A program made the position numbers and the translations under genes. The notes under the pieces were generated by a model. The model made no database searches, had not been told where the DNA came from, and saw only the letters and a list, made by a program, of their open reading frames with translations. A stretch of 64,000 nucleotides of DNA. It comes from Luteimonas kalidii. GTDB lineage: Bacteria > Pseudomonadota > Gammaproteobacteria > Xanthomonadales > Xanthomonadaceae. Shown in pieces: positions 11,798 through 54,550 of this stretch (position 1 is its first letter; each line of letters begins with the position of its first letter). Location: positions 43,588-107,587 of the forward strand of contig NZ_JARXRO010000020.1 of assembly GCF_029887935.1 (NCBI RefSeq), read 5' to 3'.

Positions 11798-12160
11798 TCA
11801 CTGGCCGGTGATCGCGGTCAGCATGCCGCGCACCTTGGATTCGACGAACGACATCGAGGCCCGGTATTCCAGCGTGGCCTGGGCGTAGACCGCGTTCTCG
11901 CGGTCGCCGTCGACGGTGTTGCCGTCGAGGCTGGGCTGGGTCGACACGCGTGCGTAGCGCGCGCCCTCGGCGGCCCCGGTGATGGCGTCGCCCGCGGCTG
12001 CGGACGCCGGGTGCAGCGCCGCGGACAGGGCGCTGTTGAAGTCCAGGTCCACGGCCTTGTAGCCGGGCGTGTCTGCGTTGGCGATGTTGGCGCTGAGCAG
12101 CTGCAGGCGCTGCTCGCGCAGGGCGAGCGCGGTGCCGTGGATGCCAAGGAAATCGGACAT
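11798..12160 (-). CDS. flgB: Flagellar proximal rod protein FlgB
   Basis: 120 aa. First gene of the leftward rod/hook operon. The N-terminal rod signature LQLLSANIANADTPGYKAVDLDF is clear. The C-terminus (TLEYRASMSFVESKVRGMLTAITGQ) is typical. GGAGG sits 5 bases before the ATG. A sigma-54 promoter lies about 38 bp upstream. Confidence 0.96.
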   Translation of the reverse strand: MSDFLGIHGTALALREQRLQLLSANIANADTPGYKAVDLDFNSALSAALHPASAAAGDAITGAAEGARYARVSTQPSLDGNTVDGDRENAVYAQATLEYRASMSFVESKVRGMLTAITGQ

Positions 12161-12197: not shown

Positions 12198-12212
12198 GCA
12201 AGCGGCGTGCCA
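12198..12212 (-). promoter_or_regulatory. Sigma-54 promoter of the flgB operon
   Basis: On the minus strand TGGCACGCCGCTTGC matches the -24/-12 consensus TGGCAC-N5-TTGC exactly, with 10 bases between GG and GC. It sits 38 bp upstream of the flgB ATG and would start RNA near 12186. In this family such class-2 flagellar promoters depend on the activator FleQ and RpoN. The rest of the 308-bp gap (12161-12468) shows no gene. Confidence 0.85.
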
Positions 12213-18559: not shown

Positions 18560-18698
18560 AGGGCGGAAGGGTAGCCGGTCGCTGCGCCGGGTTGATGGCG
18601 GGCGCTTGACCGGCCCGGGCGGTGGCCTGCGGGGACCGCAGCCGATGGTCGCGCTGGAGGCGGACCCGGCGCACGCGCGACACGCTGTGCCGCGACGG

Positions 18699-18715
18699 TG
18701 CCCTATATTGGTGCA
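18699..18715 (+). promoter_or_regulatory. NtrC-binding-site-like palindrome at the ntrB start
   Basis: TGCCCTATATTGGTGCA resembles the NtrC consensus TGCACC-N5-GGTGCA, with the right half intact. It ends immediately before the ntrB ATG. Binding here would repress ntrBC, the known autoregulation in enteric bacteria. Confidence 0.6.
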
Positions 18716-19792
18716 ATGTCGCCTGCGTCCGTCTTCGATCCCGCGCTCGATGCCCTGGTTACGCCCGTGCTGCGGGCCGACCGGCATGGCCGGGTGACGG
18801 CCTGCAACCAGGCTTTCGCACGCTGGCTCGGGGTCAGCCAGAAGCGGCTGCCGGACCAGCCGCTGGTGGCGCTGGAGGCCGAGGGCGACGGCCTGCGACG
18901 CGCATTGCAGGCACTGGACGACGCCGACGGATCGCGCCGCCTGCGCCGGGTGGCGCTGGCCTTCCTCGGCGGCGAGCCGCGCTTCGCCGATGTCTGGCTG
19001 ACCCGCGAGGCCGACGGCGGCACCCTGCTCGAGGCGCACCCGGTCGACGAATTCCCCGGCGAGGATCCCACCCGCGCGCTGCCGCTGGCGCTGTCGGCCG
19101 CGCTCAAAGGCCTGGCGCACGAGCTGCGCAATCCGCTGGCCGGGCTCAAGGGCGCGGCACAGCTGCTGGGCCGGCGCGCCACCGACGCCGATTCGCGCGA
19201 ACTGGTCGACCTGATCTCGCGCGAAGTGCAGCGCCTGACCCAGCTGGTCGAGCAGCTGATGTCGCCGGCGCCGCCGCGCCCGCACCAGCCGCTCAACATC
19301 CACGGCGCGCTGGAGCAGGTGGTGCGCCTGGCCGAGCAGGAGGCCGGCTGGGCGGTGCGCCTGGTGCGCGACTACGACCCCAGCCTGCCGCCGCTGCGCG
19401 GCGATCCCGACCGTCTCACCCAGGCGGTGTGGAACCTGGTGCGCAACGCCATCCAGGCCGGCGCGGCCAACGTCAGCCTGCGCACCCGCGCCGAGTTCGG
19501 CGTGCGCATCGGCGAGCAGGTGCACGCGCTGGCGCTGCGCATGGAGATCGTGGACGACGGCCGCGGCGTGCCCGAGGCGCTGGCCGAACAGATCTTCCTG
19601 CCGCTGGTGTCCGGACGCGCCGACGGCAGCGGCCTGGGGCTGGCGATGGCGCAGCAGGTGGCGCGCGAGCACGGCGGCTCGCTCGGCTACCGCTCGCGCC
19701 CCGGGCATACCGTGTTCACCCTGCTGCTGCCGCTGCCCGATGGCGACGGCGACGATCCACTCCCCGCCACCGACCGGGTGGCCCAGCCATGA
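18716..19792 (+). CDS. ntrB: Nitrogen regulation sensor kinase NtrB
   Basis: 358 aa. Cytoplasmic kinase/phosphatase of NtrC. A PAS domain (about 10-110) is followed by the H-box LAHELRNPLAGLKGAAQLL (His near 133). The N-box is WNLVRNAIQAGA, and the ATP lid region contains VDDGRGVPEALAEQIF and GSGLGLAMAQQVAREHGG. The ATG at 18716 was chosen because the NtrC-like site ends there and the upstream ATG lies inside it. glnA is not adjacent. It is followed after 9 bp by ntrC. Confidence 0.95.
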   Translation: MSPASVFDPALDALVTPVLRADRHGRVTACNQAFARWLGVSQKRLPDQPLVALEAEGDGLRRALQALDDADGSRRLRRVALAFLGGEPRFADVWLTREADGGTLLEAHPVDEFPGEDPTRALPLALSAALKGLAHELRNPLAGLKGAAQLLGRRATDADSRELVDLISREVQRLTQLVEQLMSPAPPRPHQPLNIHGALEQVVRLAEQEAGWAVRLVRDYDPSLPPLRGDPDRLTQAVWNLVRNAIQAGAANVSLRTRAEFGVRIGEQVHALALRMEIVDDGRGVPEALAEQIFLPLVSGRADGSGLGLAMAQQVAREHGGSLGYRSRPGHTVFTLLLPLPDGDGDDPLPATDRVAQP

Positions 19793-19801
19793 GGCCGCGC
19801 G

Positions 19802-21208
19802 ATGTCGAATGAAGGTGCCAGCGTGTGGGTGGTCGACGACGACCGCTCGGTGCGCTTCGTGCTGGCCACCGCGCTCAGCGACGCCGGCTACGACGTGTCC
19901 GGGTTCGACTCGGCCGACGCGGCCCTGTCCGCGCTCGGGTCGCGGCCGGTGCCGCAGCTGCTGTTCACCGACGTGCGCATGCCCGGCGACGACGGCCTGG
20001 TGCTGCTGGAGAAGATCAAGCAGGCGCATCCGCAACTGCCGGTGGTGGTGATGTCGGCCTACACGGACGTGGCCAGCACGGCGGGCGCGTTTCGCGGCGG
20101 CGCGCACGAGTTCCTGTCCAAGCCCTTCGACCTCGACGAGGCGGTGGAACTGGCCGCCCGGGTGCTCGGCGAGCGCGCGGAAGCGGCCGCCGACCTGCCG
20201 CCGGAGGTCGAGCCGGCGGGCGACGTGCTGGTGGGCGACTCACCGGCGATGCGGCAGCTGTTCCGCGCCATCGGGCGCCTGGCGCAGGCGCCGCTGACGG
20301 TGCTGATCACCGGCGAGACCGGCACCGGCAAGGAACTGGTGGCGCGCGCGCTGCATCGCGAGTCGCCGCGATCGCGGCAGCCGTTCGTCGCGCTCAACAC
20401 CGCCGCGATCCCGGCCGAGCTGCTGGAAAGCGAGCTGTTCGGACACGAGGCCGGCGCGTTCACCGGCGCCGCGCGGCGCCACATCGGCCGCTTCGAACAG
20501 GCCCACGGCGGCACCCTGTTCCTGGACGAGATCGGCGACATGCCGGCCTCGCTGCAGACCCGGCTGCTGCGGGTGCTGGCGGAGGGCGAGTTCTTCCGCG
20601 TCGGCGGGCGCGAACTGATCCGGGTCGACGTGCGCGTGATCGCCGCCACCCACCAGGACCTCGAGACCCTGGTCCAGGAAGGCCGCTTCCGCGCCGACCT
20701 GCTGCACCGGCTCGACGTGGTGCGCCTGCGCCTGCCGCCGCTGCGCGAGCGTCGCGGCGATGTGCCGGCGCTGGCCGAGCGCTTCCTGCACGAGGCCGCG
20801 GACAGGTTCGCGGCGCCGCCGAAGCGGTTCTCCAGGCCCGCGACCGATCGCCTGCTGGCCCACGACTGGCCCGGCAACGTGCGCGAACTGGAGAACCTGT
20901 GCTGGCGCCTGGCCGCGCTGGCGCCGGCCGACACCATCACCGGGTCCGACCTCGACGGAATGCTGCAGTCCACCGGACCGGCGAGCGCCGACTGGGATGC
21001 GGTGCTCAAGGCCTGGGCGCGCGACCAGCTCGCCGCCGGCACCGCCGACCTGCACGCGAAGGCGCGCGAGCGCTTCGACCATGCCTTGCTCGAAGCTGCG
21101 CTCGAACACACCGGCGGCCGCCGGACCGAGGCCGCCACCCGCCTGGGGCTGGGCCGCAATACCGTCACCCGCAAACTCGGCACCAGCCGCCGCCCGCGCC
21201 GCACCTGA
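19802..21208 (+). CDS. ntrC: Nitrogen regulator NtrC, sigma-54 activator
   Basis: 468 aa. The receiver domain (1-120) has its phospho-acceptor Asp57 in FTDVRMPGDDG. The AAA+ domain (about 140-370) has Walker A GETGTGKE, the sigma-54 contact loop GAFTGA and Walker B TLFLDEIGDM. A Fis-type helix-turn-helix at the C-terminus contains RRTEAATRLGLGRNTVTRKL. Candidate targets in this window are its own operon and the nitrate operon promoter at 52.3 kb. Confidence 0.96.
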   Translation: MSNEGASVWVVDDDRSVRFVLATALSDAGYDVSGFDSADAALSALGSRPVPQLLFTDVRMPGDDGLVLLEKIKQAHPQLPVVVMSAYTDVASTAGAFRGGAHEFLSKPFDLDEAVELAARVLGERAEAAADLPPEVEPAGDVLVGDSPAMRQLFRAIGRLAQAPLTVLITGETGTGKELVARALHRESPRSRQPFVALNTAAIPAELLESELFGHEAGAFTGAARRHIGRFEQAHGGTLFLDEIGDMPASLQTRLLRVLAEGEFFRVGGRELIRVDVRVIAATHQDLETLVQEGRFRADLLHRLDVVRLRLPPLRERRGDVPALAERFLHEAADRFAAPPKRFSRPATDRLLAHDWPGNVRELENLCWRLAALAPADTITGSDLDGMLQSTGPASADWDAVLKAWARDQLAAGTADLHAKARERFDHALLEAALEHTGGRRTEAATRLGLGRNTVTRKLGTSRRPRRT

Positions 21209-47970: not shown

Positions 47971-50427
47971 TCAGTCCTCCAGTGCGACGGCGATCGGCCG
48001 CGCGAGCTTGAGCGGCGTGTACTCGCGCGGCGTGCTGCCGGCGATGCGCGCGGCCCAGGGGTCGGGCAGGCCCTCGAGCGCGAACAGCAGGCGCTCGAAC
48101 AGCGCGCGGCGGTTGGCCGCGTCCTCCACCACCTTCTGCTTCACGTACTCCAGGCCGACGCGCTCGATGTAGTGCACGGTGCGGTCCAGGTAGTAGGCCT
48201 CCTCGCGGTAGAGCTGCAGGAAGGCGCCGGTGTACTCCTTCACCTCCTCGGCGGTCTTGACCTTGCACAGGAAGCGCGCGACCTCGGTCTTGATGCCTCC
48301 GTTGCCGCCGACGTGGAGTTCCCAGCCCGAATCCACCGCGATGATGCCCACGTCCTTGATGCCGGATTCGGCGCAGTTGCGCGGGCAGCCGGAGACCGCC
48401 AGCTTGACCTTGTGCGGGCTCCACATATTGGCCAGCATCGTTTCCAGGTCGATGCCCATCTGGGTGCTGTTCTGGGTACCGAAGCGGCAGAACTCGCTGC
48501 CCACGCAGGTCTTCACGGTGCGGATCGACTTGCCGTAGGCGTGGCCGGACTTCATCCCGAGGTCCTTCCACACGCCCACCAGGTCTTCCTTCTTCACCCC
48601 GAGCAGGTCGATGCGCTGGCCGCCCGTCACCTTGACCATCGGCACCGCGTACTTGTCGGCGACATCGGCGATGCGGCGCAGTTCGCTCGCGTTGGTCACG
48701 CCGCCCTTCATCTGCGGGATCACCGAGAACGTGCCGTCCTTCTGGATGTTGGCGTGCGCGCGCTCGTTGATGAAGCGGCTCTGCGGATCGTCCACCGCCT
48801 CGCGCGGCCAGGTCGAGAGCATGTAGTAGTTGATCGCCGGCCGGCAGGTGGCGCAGCCGTTGGGGGTACGCCATTCCATAAAGGCGTAGGCCTGCGCGTG
48901 GCTGACCAGGTGGTGGTCGCGGACCGCCTGGCGCACTTCGGCGTGGGTACGGTCGGTGCAACCGCACACCGCCTTGGTCTTGGGCGTTTCCTGGAAGTTC
49001 GAGCCCAGGCAGTTCATCAGGATCTGCTCGACCAGGCCGGTACACGAACCGCAGGAACTCGCTGCCTTCGTGTGCTTCTTGACCTCGTCGACGGTGAACA
49101 GTCCCTGCCCGCGCACCGCATTGACGATGGTGCCCTTGCACACGCCGTTGCAGCCGCAGACTTCGTCCGCATCGGCCATGCTCGCGGCCCGGTCCTGGCC
49201 GCCGGTACCGCTGTCGCCGAGCGCGGTCTCGCCGAAGGCGAGCGTGTCGCGACGGTCGCCGATCGGGCTGCCGTCCCTGATCTGGCGGAAGTACCAGGCG
49301 CCGTCGCCGGTGTCGCCGTACAGGCAGGCACCGATGAGTCTGTCGTCGCGGATGACGAGCTTCTTGTACAGGCCGCCGGCCGGATCGGAGAGCACGATCT
49401 CCTCGGTGCCTTCGCCGCCCATGAACTCGCCGGCCGAGAACAGGTCGATGCCGGTCACCTTCAGCTTGGTCGACACCGACGAGCCCTTGTAGATGCCGAT
49501 GCCGTAGGTGGCCAGGTGGTTGGCGCAGATCTTCGCCTGCTCGAACAGCGGCGCGACCAGGCCGTAGGCGATGCCGCGATGCGCGGCGCATTCGCCGACC
49601 GCATACACGCGCGGGTCGAAGGTCTGCAGGCTGTCGTCGACCACGATGCCGCGGTTGCAGTGGATGCCGGCCGCCTGTGCGAGCGTGGTGTTGGGGCGGA
49701 TGCCGGCGGCCATCACCACCAGGTCGGCCGGCACCTCTTCGCCATCGGAGAAGCGGACACCGACGACTTCACCGGCCTCGTTGCCCAGGATTTCAGTGGT
49801 CGAGGTGTTGAGCCGGAACGCCAGCCCGCGCTGCGCGAGCGACTTCTCCAGCAGCGCGCCGGCGACCGGGTCGAGCTGGCGCTCCAGCAGCCAGCCGGCC
49901 AGGTGGACCACGGTCACGTCCATGCCGCGCAGCTTCAGTCCGTTGGCCGCTTCCAGACCCAGCAGGCCGCCGCCGATCACCACCGCGTGCGTCTTCACCT
50001 TCGCGGTGTCGATCATCGTGCGCGTGTCGTGGATGTCGCGGTAGCCGATCACGCCCTTCAGGTCCTTGCCCGGCACCGGCAGGATGAAAGGCACCGAGCC
50101 GGTGGCGAGCAGCAGGCGGTCGTACTCGGCCTGCGTGCCGTCGCTGGCGACGACCTTGCGGCGAACGCGATCGATCTTCGTGACTTCCTTGCCCAGGTGC
50201 AGGGTGATGCCGTGCTCGACGTACCACGACAGCGGATTGAGCACGATCTCGTCGAAGTCCTGCTCGCCGGCCAGCACCGGCGAAAGCAGGATGCGGTTGT
50301 AGTTCGGGTGCGGCTCGGCGCCGAACACCGTGATCTCGTACATGTCCGGCTGCAGCTTGAGCAGTTCCTCGAGCGTACGGATACCGGCCATGCCGTTGCC
50401 GACCACCACCAGTCTTGGTTTCTTCAT
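47971..50427 (-). CDS. nirB: NADH-dependent nitrite reductase large subunit NirB
   Basis: 818 aa. Reduces nitrite to ammonium. The N-terminal FAD/NAD module starts LVVVGNGMAGIRTLEELLK and has a second nucleotide site AVVIGGGLLGLEAANGL. A BFD [2Fe-2S] domain (CGCNGVCKGT; SCGSCTGLVEQIL) follows. The siroheme/[4Fe-4S] domain has CVGSEFCRFG and VSGCPRNCAESG. Its ATG overlaps the GNAT gene stop by 4 bp. Confidence 0.97.
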   Translation of the reverse strand: MKKPRLVVVGNGMAGIRTLEELLKLQPDMYEITVFGAEPHPNYNRILLSPVLAGEQDFDEIVLNPLSWYVEHGITLHLGKEVTKIDRVRRKVVASDGTQAEYDRLLLATGSVPFILPVPGKDLKGVIGYRDIHDTRTMIDTAKVKTHAVVIGGGLLGLEAANGLKLRGMDVTVVHLAGWLLERQLDPVAGALLEKSLAQRGLAFRLNTSTTEILGNEAGEVVGVRFSDGEEVPADLVVMAAGIRPNTTLAQAAGIHCNRGIVVDDSLQTFDPRVYAVGECAAHRGIAYGLVAPLFEQAKICANHLATYGIGIYKGSSVSTKLKVTGIDLFSAGEFMGGEGTEEIVLSDPAGGLYKKLVIRDDRLIGACLYGDTGDGAWYFRQIRDGSPIGDRRDTLAFGETALGDSGTGGQDRAASMADADEVCGCNGVCKGTIVNAVRGQGLFTVDEVKKHTKAASSCGSCTGLVEQILMNCLGSNFQETPKTKAVCGCTDRTHAEVRQAVRDHHLVSHAQAYAFMEWRTPNGCATCRPAINYYMLSTWPREAVDDPQSRFINERAHANIQKDGTFSVIPQMKGGVTNASELRRIADVADKYAVPMVKVTGGQRIDLLGVKKEDLVGVWKDLGMKSGHAYGKSIRTVKTCVGSEFCRFGTQNSTQMGIDLETMLANMWSPHKVKLAVSGCPRNCAESGIKDVGIIAVDSGWELHVGGNGGIKTEVARFLCKVKTAEEVKEYTGAFLQLYREEAYYLDRTVHYIERVGLEYVKQKVVEDAANRRALFERLLFALEGLPDPWAARIAGSTPREYTPLKLARPIAVALED

Positions 50428-50914: not shown

Positions 50915-52123
50915 TCAGACCCTCGCCGCGCCGGCGGCGGCCCAGTGCAGGCGCCAGCGCTGCTTCACCCCGACCAGGCACAGCGATGCCGACAGCGCGA
51001 TCGCCGAGAACAGCCACAGGCCCAGCGCATACGAGCCCAGCTGCTGCTTGACCACGCCGAGGCCGGCCGCGAGCAGGAATCCGCCCACGCCGCCGGCCAT
51101 GCCGATCAGCCCGGTCATCAGCCCGATCTCGGCGCCGAAACGCTGCGGTACCAGTTGGAACACCGCCCCGTTGCCCGCACCCAGGCACAGCAGCGTGAGC
51201 ACGAACAGCGCCACCGTCGCCACCGCCCCGCCCACGCCGAGCGCCGCCGCCGCCACCAGCGCGGTGACCGCGACGTACACCATCTGCAGGGTGCGCGTGC
51301 CACCGATGCGGTCGGCGATCACGCCGCCGATCGGGCGCATCACCGAGCCGGCCAGGACGCAGGCCGCCGTGGCCCAGCCGGCGAGTTTCGGTTCGAACCC
51401 GAACTGGTCGTGGAAATAGCCCGGCAGCGCGCTGGCGAAGCCGGCGAAACCGCCGAAGGTGATCGCGTAGAACAGCATGAACCACCACGAGTCGCGGTTG
51501 CCGACCAGCACCGTGGCGTAGTCGCGCAACTGCTTGCGCGCCACCGGCACCGGCGCGTCCTTCGCGCACAGCGCGAACACCACCAGCACCACCAGCAGTG
51601 GCAGGCAGGCCAGGCCGAAGACATTGCGGAAGCCGAACGCCGCCGCCAGCGCGGGGGCGAACAGCGCGGCGAGCACGGTGCCCGAGTTGCCGGCACCGGC
51701 GATGCCCAGCGCCGTGCCCTGGTGCTCGGGCGGATACCAGCGCGAGGCCAGCGGCAGGGCGACCGCGAACGACGCACCGGCCACGCCCAGCATCAGGCCC
51801 AGCAGCAGGACCTGGCCGAAGCTGTGCACGCCCAGCCGCCACGCCACCAGCAGCGCGCCGATCACCAGCACCTGCGCCAGCAGGCCGGTGCGCCGGGCGC
51901 CGATGCGGTCGGCCAGCATGCCCAGGAACAGCCGCAGCACCGCACCGCACAGGATCGGCACGGCCACCATCAGCGCCCGCTGCTGGGTGTCGAGCGCCAG
52001 CACCTCGGCGATCTGCACCTGCATCGGACCCAGCAGGTACCAGACCATGAAGCTCAGGTCGAAGTAGAGGAAGGCGGCCAACAGCGTGGGCGTGTGCCCG
52101 GCCTGCCAGAAGGATCGGTTCAT
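50915..52123 (-). CDS. narK: Nitrate/nitrite transporter, MFS (NarK/NasA type)
   Basis: 402 aa with about 12 transmembrane helices. The nitrate-porter signatures appear as GIAGAGNSGTVLAALFAPALAAAFGFRNVFGL and MTGLIGMAGGVGGFLLAAGLG. Imports nitrate into the cytoplasm. First gene of the narK-GNAT-nirB-nirD-nasA-cobA operon. CGGAG precedes the ATG. It is preceded by a long regulatory leader. Confidence 0.95.
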   Translation of the reverse strand: MNRSFWQAGHTPTLLAAFLYFDLSFMVWYLLGPMQVQIAEVLALDTQQRALMVAVPILCGAVLRLFLGMLADRIGARRTGLLAQVLVIGALLVAWRLGVHSFGQVLLLGLMLGVAGASFAVALPLASRWYPPEHQGTALGIAGAGNSGTVLAALFAPALAAAFGFRNVFGLACLPLLVVLVVFALCAKDAPVPVARKQLRDYATVLVGNRDSWWFMLFYAITFGGFAGFASALPGYFHDQFGFEPKLAGWATAACVLAGSVMRPIGGVIADRIGGTRTLQMVYVAVTALVAAAALGVGGAVATVALFVLTLLCLGAGNGAVFQLVPQRFGAEIGLMTGLIGMAGGVGGFLLAAGLGVVKQQLGSYALGLWLFSAIALSASLCLVGVKQRWRLHWAAAGAARV

Positions 52124-52190: not shown

Positions 52191-52229
52191 AAAAACGGCG
52201 CCCTCCGGGGTGGCCGGAGAGACGCCGTT
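52191..52229 (-). terminator. Attenuator terminator in the narK leader
   Basis: On the minus strand AACGGCG pairs with CGCCGTT and encloses an inner CTCCGG/CCGGAG stem. It is followed by a run of T (TTTTTCGTTT). It lies about 70 bp before the narK ATG and after the two hexaloop hairpins, the geometry of NasT/NasR-controlled attenuation. Confidence 0.85.
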
Positions 52230-52237
52230 GTCGGCGA

Positions 52238-52297
52238 CCCAGGGCCGCCGTTGGCCTCGGGTCGGAATCTGGTTGTGCGGGCGCGTCGTTGCGCCCG
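52238..52297 (-). promoter_or_regulatory. Tandem hexaloop ANTAR-binding RNA motif
   Basis: Minus strand. Hairpin 1 (52278-52297) has a 7-bp stem and loop AACGAC. Hairpin 2 (52238-52261) has stem CCCGAGGCC/GGCCCTGGG (one mismatch, one G-U) and loop AACGGC. Both six-base loops have A at position 1 and G at position 4, the known ANTAR recognition rule. They lie just after the predicted transcription start and just before the terminator. NasT would bind here to let transcription continue. Confidence 0.85.
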
Positions 52298-52310
52298 ACA
52301 GTTATTGCAT

Positions 52311-52326
52311 CGCAACACGCGTGCCA
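52311..52326 (-). promoter_or_regulatory. Sigma-54 promoter of the nitrate assimilation operon
   Basis: On the minus strand TGGCACGCGTGTTGCG fits TGGCAC-N5-TTGC exactly with 10 bases between GG and GC. The start would fall near 52300, so the RNA begins just before the first hexaloop hairpin. The leader to the narK ATG is about 180 nt. Confidence 0.85.
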
Positions 52327-52513
52327 AGCGCATGCGCCAGCCGCGGCCCCGAGGTGCCCAACGTGTCCAGACCTTACGGTGCCGTCCCGGATCCTCTGCC
52401 GGATCAAATGCTTGGGCGTCACATCGCCGTCACGCGGCGCACTCGACGCCCTGTGTCGCCGTCAGTGTGCTGACCAGCGATGGAAGGCGACCCGGGCCTG
52501 TTATCCCCAACAA

Positions 52514-52541
52514 GGTGCAAGCGATGCACCTGTACGGTGCT
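52514..52541. promoter_or_regulatory. NtrC enhancer half-sites
   Basis: TGCACCTGTACGGTGCT (52525-52541) matches TGCACC-N5-GGTGCA with one end mismatch. A third half-site GGTGCA at 52514 keeps an 11-bp start-to-start spacing. The site is about 220 bp upstream of the sigma-54 start, a usual enhancer distance. Confidence 0.75.
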
Positions 52542-52649
52542 TTCGAGCAGGCAGGGCGTCTGTGGTCGTGCAGTGCCTAGCGATTGCCGGCTGCCGGGGG
52601 CCTCTCTCGGTTTTTGCTCACCGGAGACAGGCAAATTCCGATCGCGCAG

Positions 52650-52762
52650 CCGGAGGGGTCCGGGCGGGGGTTGCGCAAGCGGCACACGGATGTGCCGCGG
52701 CCGCGAGTGCGGACAGGGATGTCTGCCCGAGCGGTGCGCGACCCCCGTCCGGACCCCTCCGG
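52650..52762. repeat. Three-stem palindromic repeat, copy 3
   Basis: Outer arms of about 32 bases (52650-52681 and 52731-52762) pair over most of their length. Inside are GCGGCACA/TGTGCCGC (8 bp, loop CGGA) and GCGGACA/TGTCTGC (loop GGGA). Same architecture as the copies at 13.5 and 13.9 kb, and the second inner hairpin shares the core GGACAGG(G)ATGTC. It lies between nasS and the NtrC sites, and could act as a nasS terminator. Confidence 0.75.
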
Positions 52763-52901
52763 CCCCTCCGAAGGCGCGTCTTGCGCTCCATTCGAGACTC
52801 TGGATGTCGCGATCGCAGTCGCCGCTCGTCCCCGCCAGGAAGAGCGTGGGAACAGTCGCAAGCATGTGCTCGCGCGCTCGCATGCCTCCGACCGCGAGCC
52901 G

Positions 52902-53978
52902 CTAATCCCAGCGCATCCCATCGAACAGCACGCTGGTGCGCGTCTCGCCGCGCGGGAGCGGCACCCCGACCTGGAGCGCGGCCAGCCGATAGCTGTCGAG
53001 GCGATGGATCTCCTCCAGGCGCGCGTCGTCGCCGGTCGCGTCCGCGCCCAGCCAACCCCAGCGGCGGAACTGGTGCAGGAACCAGCGCCCGTCCGACAGC
53101 CACGGGAAGTTCACCTCGCCATCGCCGTGGAAGCGCAACCGGGCGACACGCGGCGTGGTGTCTGGCGGCAGCAGGCAGTCGACCAGACTGGCCACGGGCA
53201 GGTCGATCGCGCCGTCGTCCGCCAGCCACTGCGCCGCCTGCGCGCGATGGTCTGGATCCTCGTCCAGCCAGCGGCAGGCCTCGAGCACCGCGGCCGTGAG
53301 TGCAGTCGCCGCCTCCGGCTCCAGTGCCGCGAACGCGCGTCGGCAGGCCAGCACCTTTTCCGGATGCCCGGGCCAGATCTCGCCGCTGCGGATCACCCGC
53401 GCGCCGGCGCCCAGTGCCTCTGCCTGGGCCGCCCACGGCTCCCCGGCGCAGTAGCCCTGTATCTCGCCGCGCGCCAGCGCCGTCGGCATCTCCGGCGGCG
53501 GCAGCGTCAGCGCCTGCACCTCGTGCAGCGGGTCGATCCCTTGCGCCGCCAGCCAGTAGTACAGCCACATCGCGTGGGTGCCGGTGGGGAAGGTCTGCGC
53601 CAGCTGCGGCCGCCGAGCCGGCACGTCCAGGGCCTCGCGCAGGGTCGCCCCTGCGCGCAGGCGCTGCGCCGCCTCCGGCGCAAGCACGATCGCCTGGCCG
53701 TTCTGGTTGAGCACCATCAGCACCGCCATCGGCGCCTGCGGTCCGCCGATGCCGGCGTCGACGCCGTAGACCATGCCGGCGAGCGCATGCGCGGCATCGA
53801 GTTCGCCCGACAGCAGCTTGTCGCGCACCGCCGCCCACGAACCCTGCCGTCGCAGCTCCAGCTGCAGGCCATGCGTACGGTCGAATCCCATCCGCACCGC
53901 CACCACCAGCGGCGCGCAGTCCACCAGCGGCATGTAGCCCAGGCGCAGGGGGCGGAGCGTTCCGGCGATGCGCGTCAT
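52902..53978 (-). CDS. nasS: Nitrate/nitrite sensor NasS
   Basis: 358 aa. Belongs to the NrtA/CmpA substrate-binding family, but has no signal peptide (MTRIAGTLRPLRLGYMPLVDCAPLVVAVRMGF) and no nrtBC transporter genes nearby. That makes it the cytoplasmic sensor NasS, which holds NasT inactive until it binds nitrate or nitrite. Motifs include FPTGTHAMWLYYWLAAQGIDP and IQGYCAGEPWAAQA. Its ATG overlaps the nasT stop by 4 bp. Confidence 0.9.
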   Translation of the reverse strand: MTRIAGTLRPLRLGYMPLVDCAPLVVAVRMGFDRTHGLQLELRRQGSWAAVRDKLLSGELDAAHALAGMVYGVDAGIGGPQAPMAVLMVLNQNGQAIVLAPEAAQRLRAGATLREALDVPARRPQLAQTFPTGTHAMWLYYWLAAQGIDPLHEVQALTLPPPEMPTALARGEIQGYCAGEPWAAQAEALGAGARVIRSGEIWPGHPEKVLACRRAFAALEPEAATALTAAVLEACRWLDEDPDHRAQAAQWLADDGAIDLPVASLVDCLLPPDTTPRVARLRFHGDGEVNFPWLSDGRWFLHQFRRWGWLGADATGDDARLEEIHRLDSYRLAALQVGVPLPRGETRTSVLFDGMRWD

Positions 53979-54550
53979 CCCAGCAGGTCCGCCATCGACA
54001 GGATCCGGCGCGCCACGTCGGCCAGTTTGAGGTTCTGTCGCATCGCCTGCTGGCGCAGCGCCGCGTAGGCGTCGCGTTCGCTCATGCCGCGTTTCTCCAT
54101 CAGCAGGCCCTTGGCCTGTTCGATCTGCTTGCGGTCCTGCAGCTGCTGCTGCACGCCTTCGAGCTGCTGGCGCAGCTGCGATTCCTGTTCGAAGCGCGCC
54201 AGCGCCACCTGGATGATCGGCCGCAGCCGCGACGGCGCCAGCCCGTCGACCACGTAGGCCGCCACGCCCGCGCCGACCGCGGCGCGGATCAGCTGTTCGT
54301 CGCCGTTGGCCGAGAACATCACCACCGGGCGCGGTGCGTGCCGGTGCAGCATCGCCAGCTGTTCCAGCGCGTCGCGCGAGGGCGAATCGACGTCGAGGAT
54401 CACCACGTCCGGCCGGTGCGCCTCCACCACCTTGAGCAGCGTGGCCACGCCGTCCACCACGTCCAGCACCTCGTGCCCGGCCGCGACCAGCGCGGCCCGC
54501 AGGTCGCCGATCGGCTTGGCCGTGTCGCTGATGAGGAGGATGCGGGGCAT
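53975..54550 (-). CDS. nasT: ANTAR-domain transcription antiterminator NasT
   Basis: 191 aa. N-terminal receiver-like domain (1-120) with VVILDVDSPSRDALEQL. A coiled linker follows, then a C-terminal ANTAR RNA-binding domain (about 125-190): DRKQIEQAKGLLMEKRGMSERDAYAALRQQAMRQNLKLADVARRIL. Would bind the two-hairpin leader of narK. First gene of nasT-nasS, divergent from the cysG-like gene. Confidence 0.94.
   Translation of the reverse strand: MPRILLISDTAKPIGDLRAALVAAGHEVLDVVDGVATLLKVVEAHRPDVVILDVDSPSRDALEQLAMLHRHAPRPVVMFSANGDEQLIRAAVGAGVAAYVVDGLAPSRLRPIIQVALARFEQESQLRQQLEGVQQQLQDRKQIEQAKGLLMEKRGMSERDAYAALRQQAMRQNLKLADVARRILSMADLLG

Follow-up and report, generated by a model that had tools for sequence, protein, structure and literature searches.

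A conserved third hexaloop at the 5' end of a putative dual-control narK leader in Luteimonas kalidii

In RNAs targeted by ANTAR proteins, the 5' base of the terminator supplies the sequence of the second mini-hairpin (PMC3369931). The EutV dimer is in contact with a single hexaloop at any one time, and it has been proposed to bind P1 first and then P2; an additional single hexaloop is mentioned for EutX RNA, which is sequestering (PMC8934654). In Paracoccus denitrificans, nitrate dissociates the NasS-NasT complex (PMC3795266). When the Paracoccus leader was mutated and nitrate was supplied, the HI mutation abolished expression and the HII mutation hardly altered it (PMC5424462). The nas genes of P. 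stutzeri fall in an ntrC mutant (PMC8443478). In Bradyrhizobium diazoefficiens a hairpin that NasT could recognise was predicted before narK, yet narK was up in a nasT mutant (PMC6759348).

Here, we describe the narK leader in the window, which is the whole 64-kb stretch of Luteimonas kalidii DNA that was analysed. It is very probably a nitrate-assimilation leader under double control, in which transcription would start through NtrC and sigma-54 and would read through when nitrate allows NasT to act via a hairpin that we call H2. The dual-control switch itself is of a known kind. The new element is H0, a conserved third hexaloop at the 5' end of the leader; the open-access literature, some of it available in part and with few subscription papers covered, yielded no report of a third 5'-terminal hexaloop in NasT leaders.

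The narK locus and its promoter

The initial annotation of this region had read, on the minus strand, NtrC sites, a promoter, hairpins, a terminator and narK, and both this order and its coordinates were confirmed on the sequence. The first gene past the leader is narK, encoding an MFS transporter (50915-52123, minus strand), with nirB downstream of it (about 47971-50334 and beyond). Among 29 long Lysobacteraceae loci, 27 likewise have narK directly after the leader. Upstream of the leader, in the same orientation as narK, are nasT (53975-54550, minus strand), for a receiver and ANTAR RNA-binding regulator, and nasS (52902-53978, minus strand), for its NMT1_2-type sensor partner. The adjoining nasT and nasS had been predicted, and the expected domains were found: the ANTAR domain of NasT matched PF03861 (E 5e-20) and that of NasS was NMT1_2. 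The distance from the end of nasT to the NtrC site, which is downstream of it, is about 1.4 kb. The NasT protein shares 97% identity with its L. rhizosphaericola counterpart, and its residues R140, E158, Y162 and M170 align with R142, E160, Y164 and M172, which contact the loop in EutV (PMC8934654), if an inferred chain-numbering offset of two is accepted. The predicted ntrBC pair is likewise in the window, with ntrC, a sigma-54 activator gene (19802-21208, plus strand), above the cut-off (TIGR01818, 673.8 bits against 558.6) and an ntrB-like histidine kinase gene (18698-19792, plus strand) below it (NF008293, 211.7 bits against 240). Within the genus nasT is patchy, with matches of at least 74% identity in 7 of 37 genomes, the window's own included.

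Between nasS and the leader is a long inverted repeat (52645-52768). Partial copies with 80-94% identity are found three more times in the genome, and it is therefore a dispersed palindromic element and not a gene. The top sub-threshold Rfam match in the window, MIR1437 (25.5 bits), was rejected since it is this repeated genomic element (inverted repeat 52649-52763).

The consensus of the NtrC palindrome is TGCACCN5GGTGCA. The palindrome AGCACCGTACAGGTGCA (52525-52541, minus strand), centred about 208 bp before the -24 GG, is the sole match to it with at most one mismatch within the 64 kb. A second NtrC-like site, TGCACCTTGTTGGGGAT (52503-52519, minus strand), follows 22 bp on; it is weak, with three mismatches and one good half-site, so that the earlier wording of phased NtrC half-sites held for the first site and was generous for the second. 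The claim of an exact -24/-12 promoter was borne out by TGGCACGCGTGTTGC (52312-52326, minus strand). From the spacing of this sigma-54 box, transcription would start at about 52303-52299.

The window has two exact matches to the box, one in the narK leader and one in front of flgB. The latter (12198-12212, minus strand) is, by eye, just upstream of a flgB-like ORF (11798-12160) and reads like a flagellar sigma-54 promoter in its placement. The bare pattern was not enriched in the window, with 26 matches at two or fewer mismatches against 37.45 in shuffles, and the weight of the box in the leader therefore rests on its place and its conservation. The box reads TGGCACG-N4-TTGC in all seven same-genus leaders. 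With at least 9 of 12 letters matching, it precedes 46 of the 57 leaders found with a covariance model (described below), compared to 52 of 1140 shuffled upstream regions. A palindrome with at least 8 of 10 letters matching precedes 29 of 34 leaders, compared with 397 of the 1700 shuffled sequences, and 12 of the 34 carry paired palindromes spaced 20-23 bp. The narK leader thus has a -24/-12 box with one strong and one weak upstream site, and both kinds of element are frequent in relatives.

Hairpins, terminator and conservation of the H1 and H2 pair

Two hairpins with loops AACGAC and AACGGC had been described, and both fold as claimed. The first, H0 (52278-52297, minus strand), is the 5'-terminal hairpin CGGGCGC-AACGAC-GCGCCCG with its loop at 52290-52285, and the second, H1 (52235-52264, minus strand), has the loop AACGGC at 52252-52247. 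The 114-nt leader has a minimum free energy of -65 kcal/mol (z -5.05), and none of 200 shuffles was equally stable. The annotated intrinsic terminator before narK is also present (52191-52229, minus strand; stem 52229-52194, T-run 52195-52191). Two hexaloop hairpins are stable in the free RNA, H0 and H1, and neither overlaps the terminator. They had been taken as the ANTAR pair; both loops are real, but the leader has three hexaloops with the A1/G4 signature, and the one overlooked is in the 5' arm of the terminator. This is H2, GAC-AACGGC-GTC (52221-52232, minus strand). The 5' arm of the terminator is exactly the loop plus the 3' arm of H2 (AACGGCGTC, 52229-52221), so H2 and the full terminator are mutually exclusive. 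Forcing H2 in the fold cost the terminator its base (-52 compared to -65 kcal/mol).

Since H0 and H1 are clear of the terminator, gripping them alone gives no evident terminator block. H2 overlaps the terminator as ANTAR targets do, and the likely antiterminator pair from the sequence is H1 and H2, with H0 as an additional element. On its own, H2 has only 3 bp here, and without protein the RNA folds preferentially into a competing tetraloop hairpin until the terminator forms. Such a weak hairpin would suit an element that needs a protein to form, and the support for H2 comes from conservation and not from folding energy. The leader has two hairpins with A1/G4 hexaloops (H1 and H2), the second of which by sequence excludes an intrinsic terminator, in agreement with the covariation, and a cognate ANTAR protein, NasT, is encoded nearby. 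The presumed working element is thereby relocated to H2, away from the two stable hairpins.

A comparison of the leader across relatives had been proposed as a check. The seven same-genus leaders, which were aligned with no loop filter, all share the same H1 loop and the same H2 loop, but their H0 loops vary (AACGAC in two, AAAGCC in two, and AATGCC, AACGGC and ATCCAC). Detection required H2 elsewhere, so an unchanging H2 in the large set is no evidence, and it is these seven leaders that count. They also bear on another reading, in which the target of NasT is H0 plus H1 (the hexaloop hairpins that are stable when the RNA is free), H2 is a coincidence and bound NasT acts on RNA polymerase instead of excluding the terminator. 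We consider this very improbable. The constancy of the H2 loop in the seven leaders argues against it, as do the loss of A1/G4 from H0 in L035 and L044, the loss of the H1 hexaloop in L073 and L076, and the overlap of H2 with the terminator, which is as in published ANTAR targets (PMC3369931); the larger leader sets demanded H2 and were not counted against it.

For the preferred pair of H1 and H2, a covariance model (R2) was built from 37 leaders, the window's own site included. In the 3.96-Mb genome the leader scored 50.4 bits (E 1e-8) and the next best candidate 17.0 bits (E 0.87), making the leader the only significant match found, with 150 of 6008 first-look candidates scored. At E 0.01, R2 matched in 46 genomes of the class (369 searched) and in 26 of the family (149 searched), and at E 0.001 in 36 of 398 genomes of a phylum sample, all 36 in the window's own class; the filters of these surveys drop weak matches, and the three samples share genomes. 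H2 is more divergent in alphaproteobacterial leaders, which were taken from NasT loci. In the genomes G141 (contig 17, at 91249, 96260 and 97946), G196 and G266, two to three leader matches lie within about 2-11 kb, which suggests more than one NasT target per cluster.

The model-found set has 57 of the 84 loci fetched with R2 (L133, L138-L220). Near-duplicate, weak or truncated loci were left out (L140, L141, L157, L163, L168, L170, L173, L182-L193, L197-L199, L204, L205, L215, L216 and L220). Our broad H2 detector also flagged H1 as terminator-linked in many loci, because H1 and H2 both read AACGGC, and the promoter-distal candidate was kept per locus. In 95 leaders filtered for box, H2 and terminator, position 3 of the H2 loop faces the 3' arm of the terminator as C-G in 45, A-T in 32, G-C in 3 and a non-Watson-Crick combination in 15; the filter allowed one mismatch, and the paired share is thus in part a product of selection, which affects the variety of pairs less. 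Over 24 leaders, picked for having H0, two-sided changes occur at 7 of 8 pairs of the H1 stem and at 1 of 5 pairs of the H2 stem, in which three pairs are invariant.

H0, a third hexaloop at the 5' end

H0 is present in 35 of 38 distinct Lysobacteraceae leaders, and 34 have H0, H1 and H2. In L073, which has H0 and H2, a tetraloop takes the place of the H1 hexaloop, and L035, L044 and L081 have no H0 hexaloop at the scanned place. L081, a doubtful MAG titled Lysobacteraceae (NasT 49%), was kept in the denominator of 38. Leaders entered this set with a sigma-54 box, H2 and a terminator, and were distinct by exact sequence. The filter missed, among others, L036 (three hexaloops, broken T-run), L180 and L181 (without the box), and L139-L141, L160 and L165 (a third hexaloop, box not recognised). 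No leader was found in 5 of 35 Lysobacteraceae loci (L047, L055, L070, L075 and L098), of which L055 and L070 stop less than 1.4 kb after nasT. Scripted triples in L089 and L091 (stable tetraloops) and L156 (weak stem) were not counted, and L166 and L219 were scripted as lacking H1 only because it is 42 nt before H2, beyond the scanned range. The counted leader sets overlap in species.

The position of H0 is narrow. In all 35 leaders with H0 its loop starts 35-37 nt downstream of the -24 T (33-41 scanned), i.e., at about +10 of the predicted transcript, and the RNA would therefore start with the H0 hairpin. Over the 24 leaders above, 93.2% of the cells of the H0 stem are paired. The covariation score of the three hairpins was 0.475 compared to 0.213 for shuffles and was matched by no shuffled or slid version (rows with H0). 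Among Lysobacteraceae leaders with the box, H0 was found in 10 of 12 (shuffle mean 1.22, maximum 5 in 500). Beyond the Lysobacteraceae it was found in 10 of 34 leaders with the box (shuffle mean 3.03, maximum 11 in 500) and in 15 of 43 of all leaders (shuffle mean 3.78, maximum 10). The excess outside the family is therefore a tendency. Clear cases outside the family are L072 (Jeongeupia), L074 (a Neisseriaceae bacterium), L194 and L202. The NasT clade as the sole cause of H0 was ruled out by L194, which has H0 with a nearby NasT of 40% identity. In 12 leaders the promoter is directly followed by H1, 35-41 nt from the -24 box and at about the place of H0; in other leaders with no H0, H1 is farther off, at 43 to 105 nt (17 of 27).

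Alternatively, H0 may serve only as a stem at the 5' end, protecting the mRNA or insulating the leader, and NasT may not read its loop. In 12 alphaproteobacterial loci (L089, L091, L092, L101, L102, L107, L109-L112, L114 and L118), about the same position is taken by a hairpin whose loop has four or five bases (that of L107 folded differently in a second examination), suggesting that a 5' hairpin may have a general role and carry a NasT loop only sometimes. Also, L035 and L044 retain the H0 stem with a loop lacking A1/G4, alongside H1 and H2, and other loops occur in L143, L145, L156 and L162. Against a stem of this kind, the H0 stem shows two-sided change at 7 of 8 pairs while the loop is AACGGC in 24 of 35 Lysobacteraceae leaders, the selection having demanded A1 and G4 only. 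Perfect hexaloop hairpins of at least 5 bp upstream of H1 have A1/G4 in 6 of 9 cases in 14 Lysobacteraceae leaders and in 7 of 13 in 43 other leaders, compared to 1 in 16 for equally frequent signatures. L073 and L076 carry H0 and H2 but no H1 hexaloop, which also counts against a stem alone. We therefore regard a purely structural H0 as rather unlikely.

The losses suggest a different role. The H0 loop is lost in some leaders and the H1 loop in others, suggesting that either H0 or H1 can serve as the upstream contact, with H2 as the switch. This pattern agrees with the EutV structure, in which the dimer visits one hexaloop at a time. On this view NasT could land on H0 as well as on H1, the two being redundant, and would get hold of the transcript earlier through H0. 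As a tentative model that we put somewhat below an even chance, the minimum may be one upstream loop plus H2, with the second upstream loop tuning sensitivity. The same geometry would be expected if H0 were a decoy that kept NasT from H2 and so set a threshold, and the extra hexaloop mentioned for the sequestering EutX RNA (PMC8934654) is a precedent in its favour. However, if two loops are needed, L073 and L076 require a positive action of H0, and a decoy seems very improbable to us. The natural loop-loss leaders bear on the current question of whether an ANTAR dimer visits hexaloops serially or an oligomer holds several.

Proposed switch and its relation to described systems

The proposed switch would work as follows. 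Under nitrogen limitation, NtrC~P would activate the sigma-54 promoter and RNA would start with H0. When nitrate is absent, NasS would retain NasT, AACGGCGTC would pair into the terminator and transcription would stop before narK. When nitrate is present, NasS would free NasT, which would grip the hexaloops of the nascent RNA, H0 and/or H1 first, and would next stabilise H2. Formation of H2 would exclude the terminator, and RNA polymerase would read into narK and on to nirB. In this scheme, the binding of NtrC and of NasT and the nitrate response at the narK leader are predicted from the precedents, and the role of H0 as a third NasT site is predicted from its conservation. The nitrogen-status AND nitrate switch of the initial annotation keeps its logic, which fits the sequence and the precedents, but the mechanism offered with it appears incomplete and its loop pair mis-assigned. 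The Bradyrhizobium narK and Paracoccus HII results count against a simple transfer of mechanism.

At the gathering threshold, Rfam had no match in the window. The 'narK RNA' family RF03032 reached 24.3 bits in the window, below its gathering score of 43.2, and the leader appears to work like this family but is not filed as a member. The consensus of RF03032 opens with GGCaCAgcucUUGC, and its first 15 positions read as a -24/-12 box; it has the H1 hexaloop and, 3' of it, an A1/G4 hexaloop that is left unpaired in the structure line. A search of 274 class genomes with RF03032 found matches at E 0.001 in 12, two of them over the cut-off, and 14 control genomes had none. Thirteen loci matched (L120-L132), of which 11 were readable (L128 and L131 excluded). 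Seven of the 11 start with GGCA...TGC, an eighth has TTGA instead, and 10 have, by eye, the second A1/G4 hexaloop at the place that Rfam leaves unpaired. RF03032 therefore looks like a sigma-54 promoter with a dual hexaloop for NasT, the same element as the leader here, and NasT is proposed as the protein partner of an RNA family whose first 15 positions are promoter-like. The source of the family is reportedly a 2017 paper, and no paper in the open-access literature was matched for narK motif or narK RNA. RF03032 shares with our leader the -24/-12 box, the H1 hexaloop and the second A1/G4 hexaloop, but it lacks H0 and has H1 directly after the box.

The EutV/eut, NasR/nasF and AmiR/amiE systems (PMC3369931) resemble the leader in their two A1/G4 hexaloops, with the terminator's 5' base providing the second, in their ANTAR protein and in their nitrogen genes. 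Unlike them, the leader has a third hexaloop hairpin ahead of the pair, at the 5' end of the transcript. In Paracoccus denitrificans (PMC3795266, PMC5424462) nasTS is likewise upstream of the nasA operon, nitrate releases NasT onto a leader RNA with hairpins HI and HII, and NtrBC is required. The NtrC site that was mutated in Paracoccus is at nasT, whereas here the sigma-54 box and the NtrC-type site are on the narK leader. Klebsiella nasF also combines Ntr-dependent expression AND nitrate-dependent antitermination, as the introduction of PMC5424462 describes, and has two hexaloops (PMC3369931). There, the single protein NasR senses nitrate and binds RNA, whereas here these tasks would be split into NasS and NasT. 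The combination of NtrC control AND antitermination has been published in Klebsiella nasF and to some extent in Paracoccus (PMC5424462), so the switch proposed for the narK leader is of a known kind.
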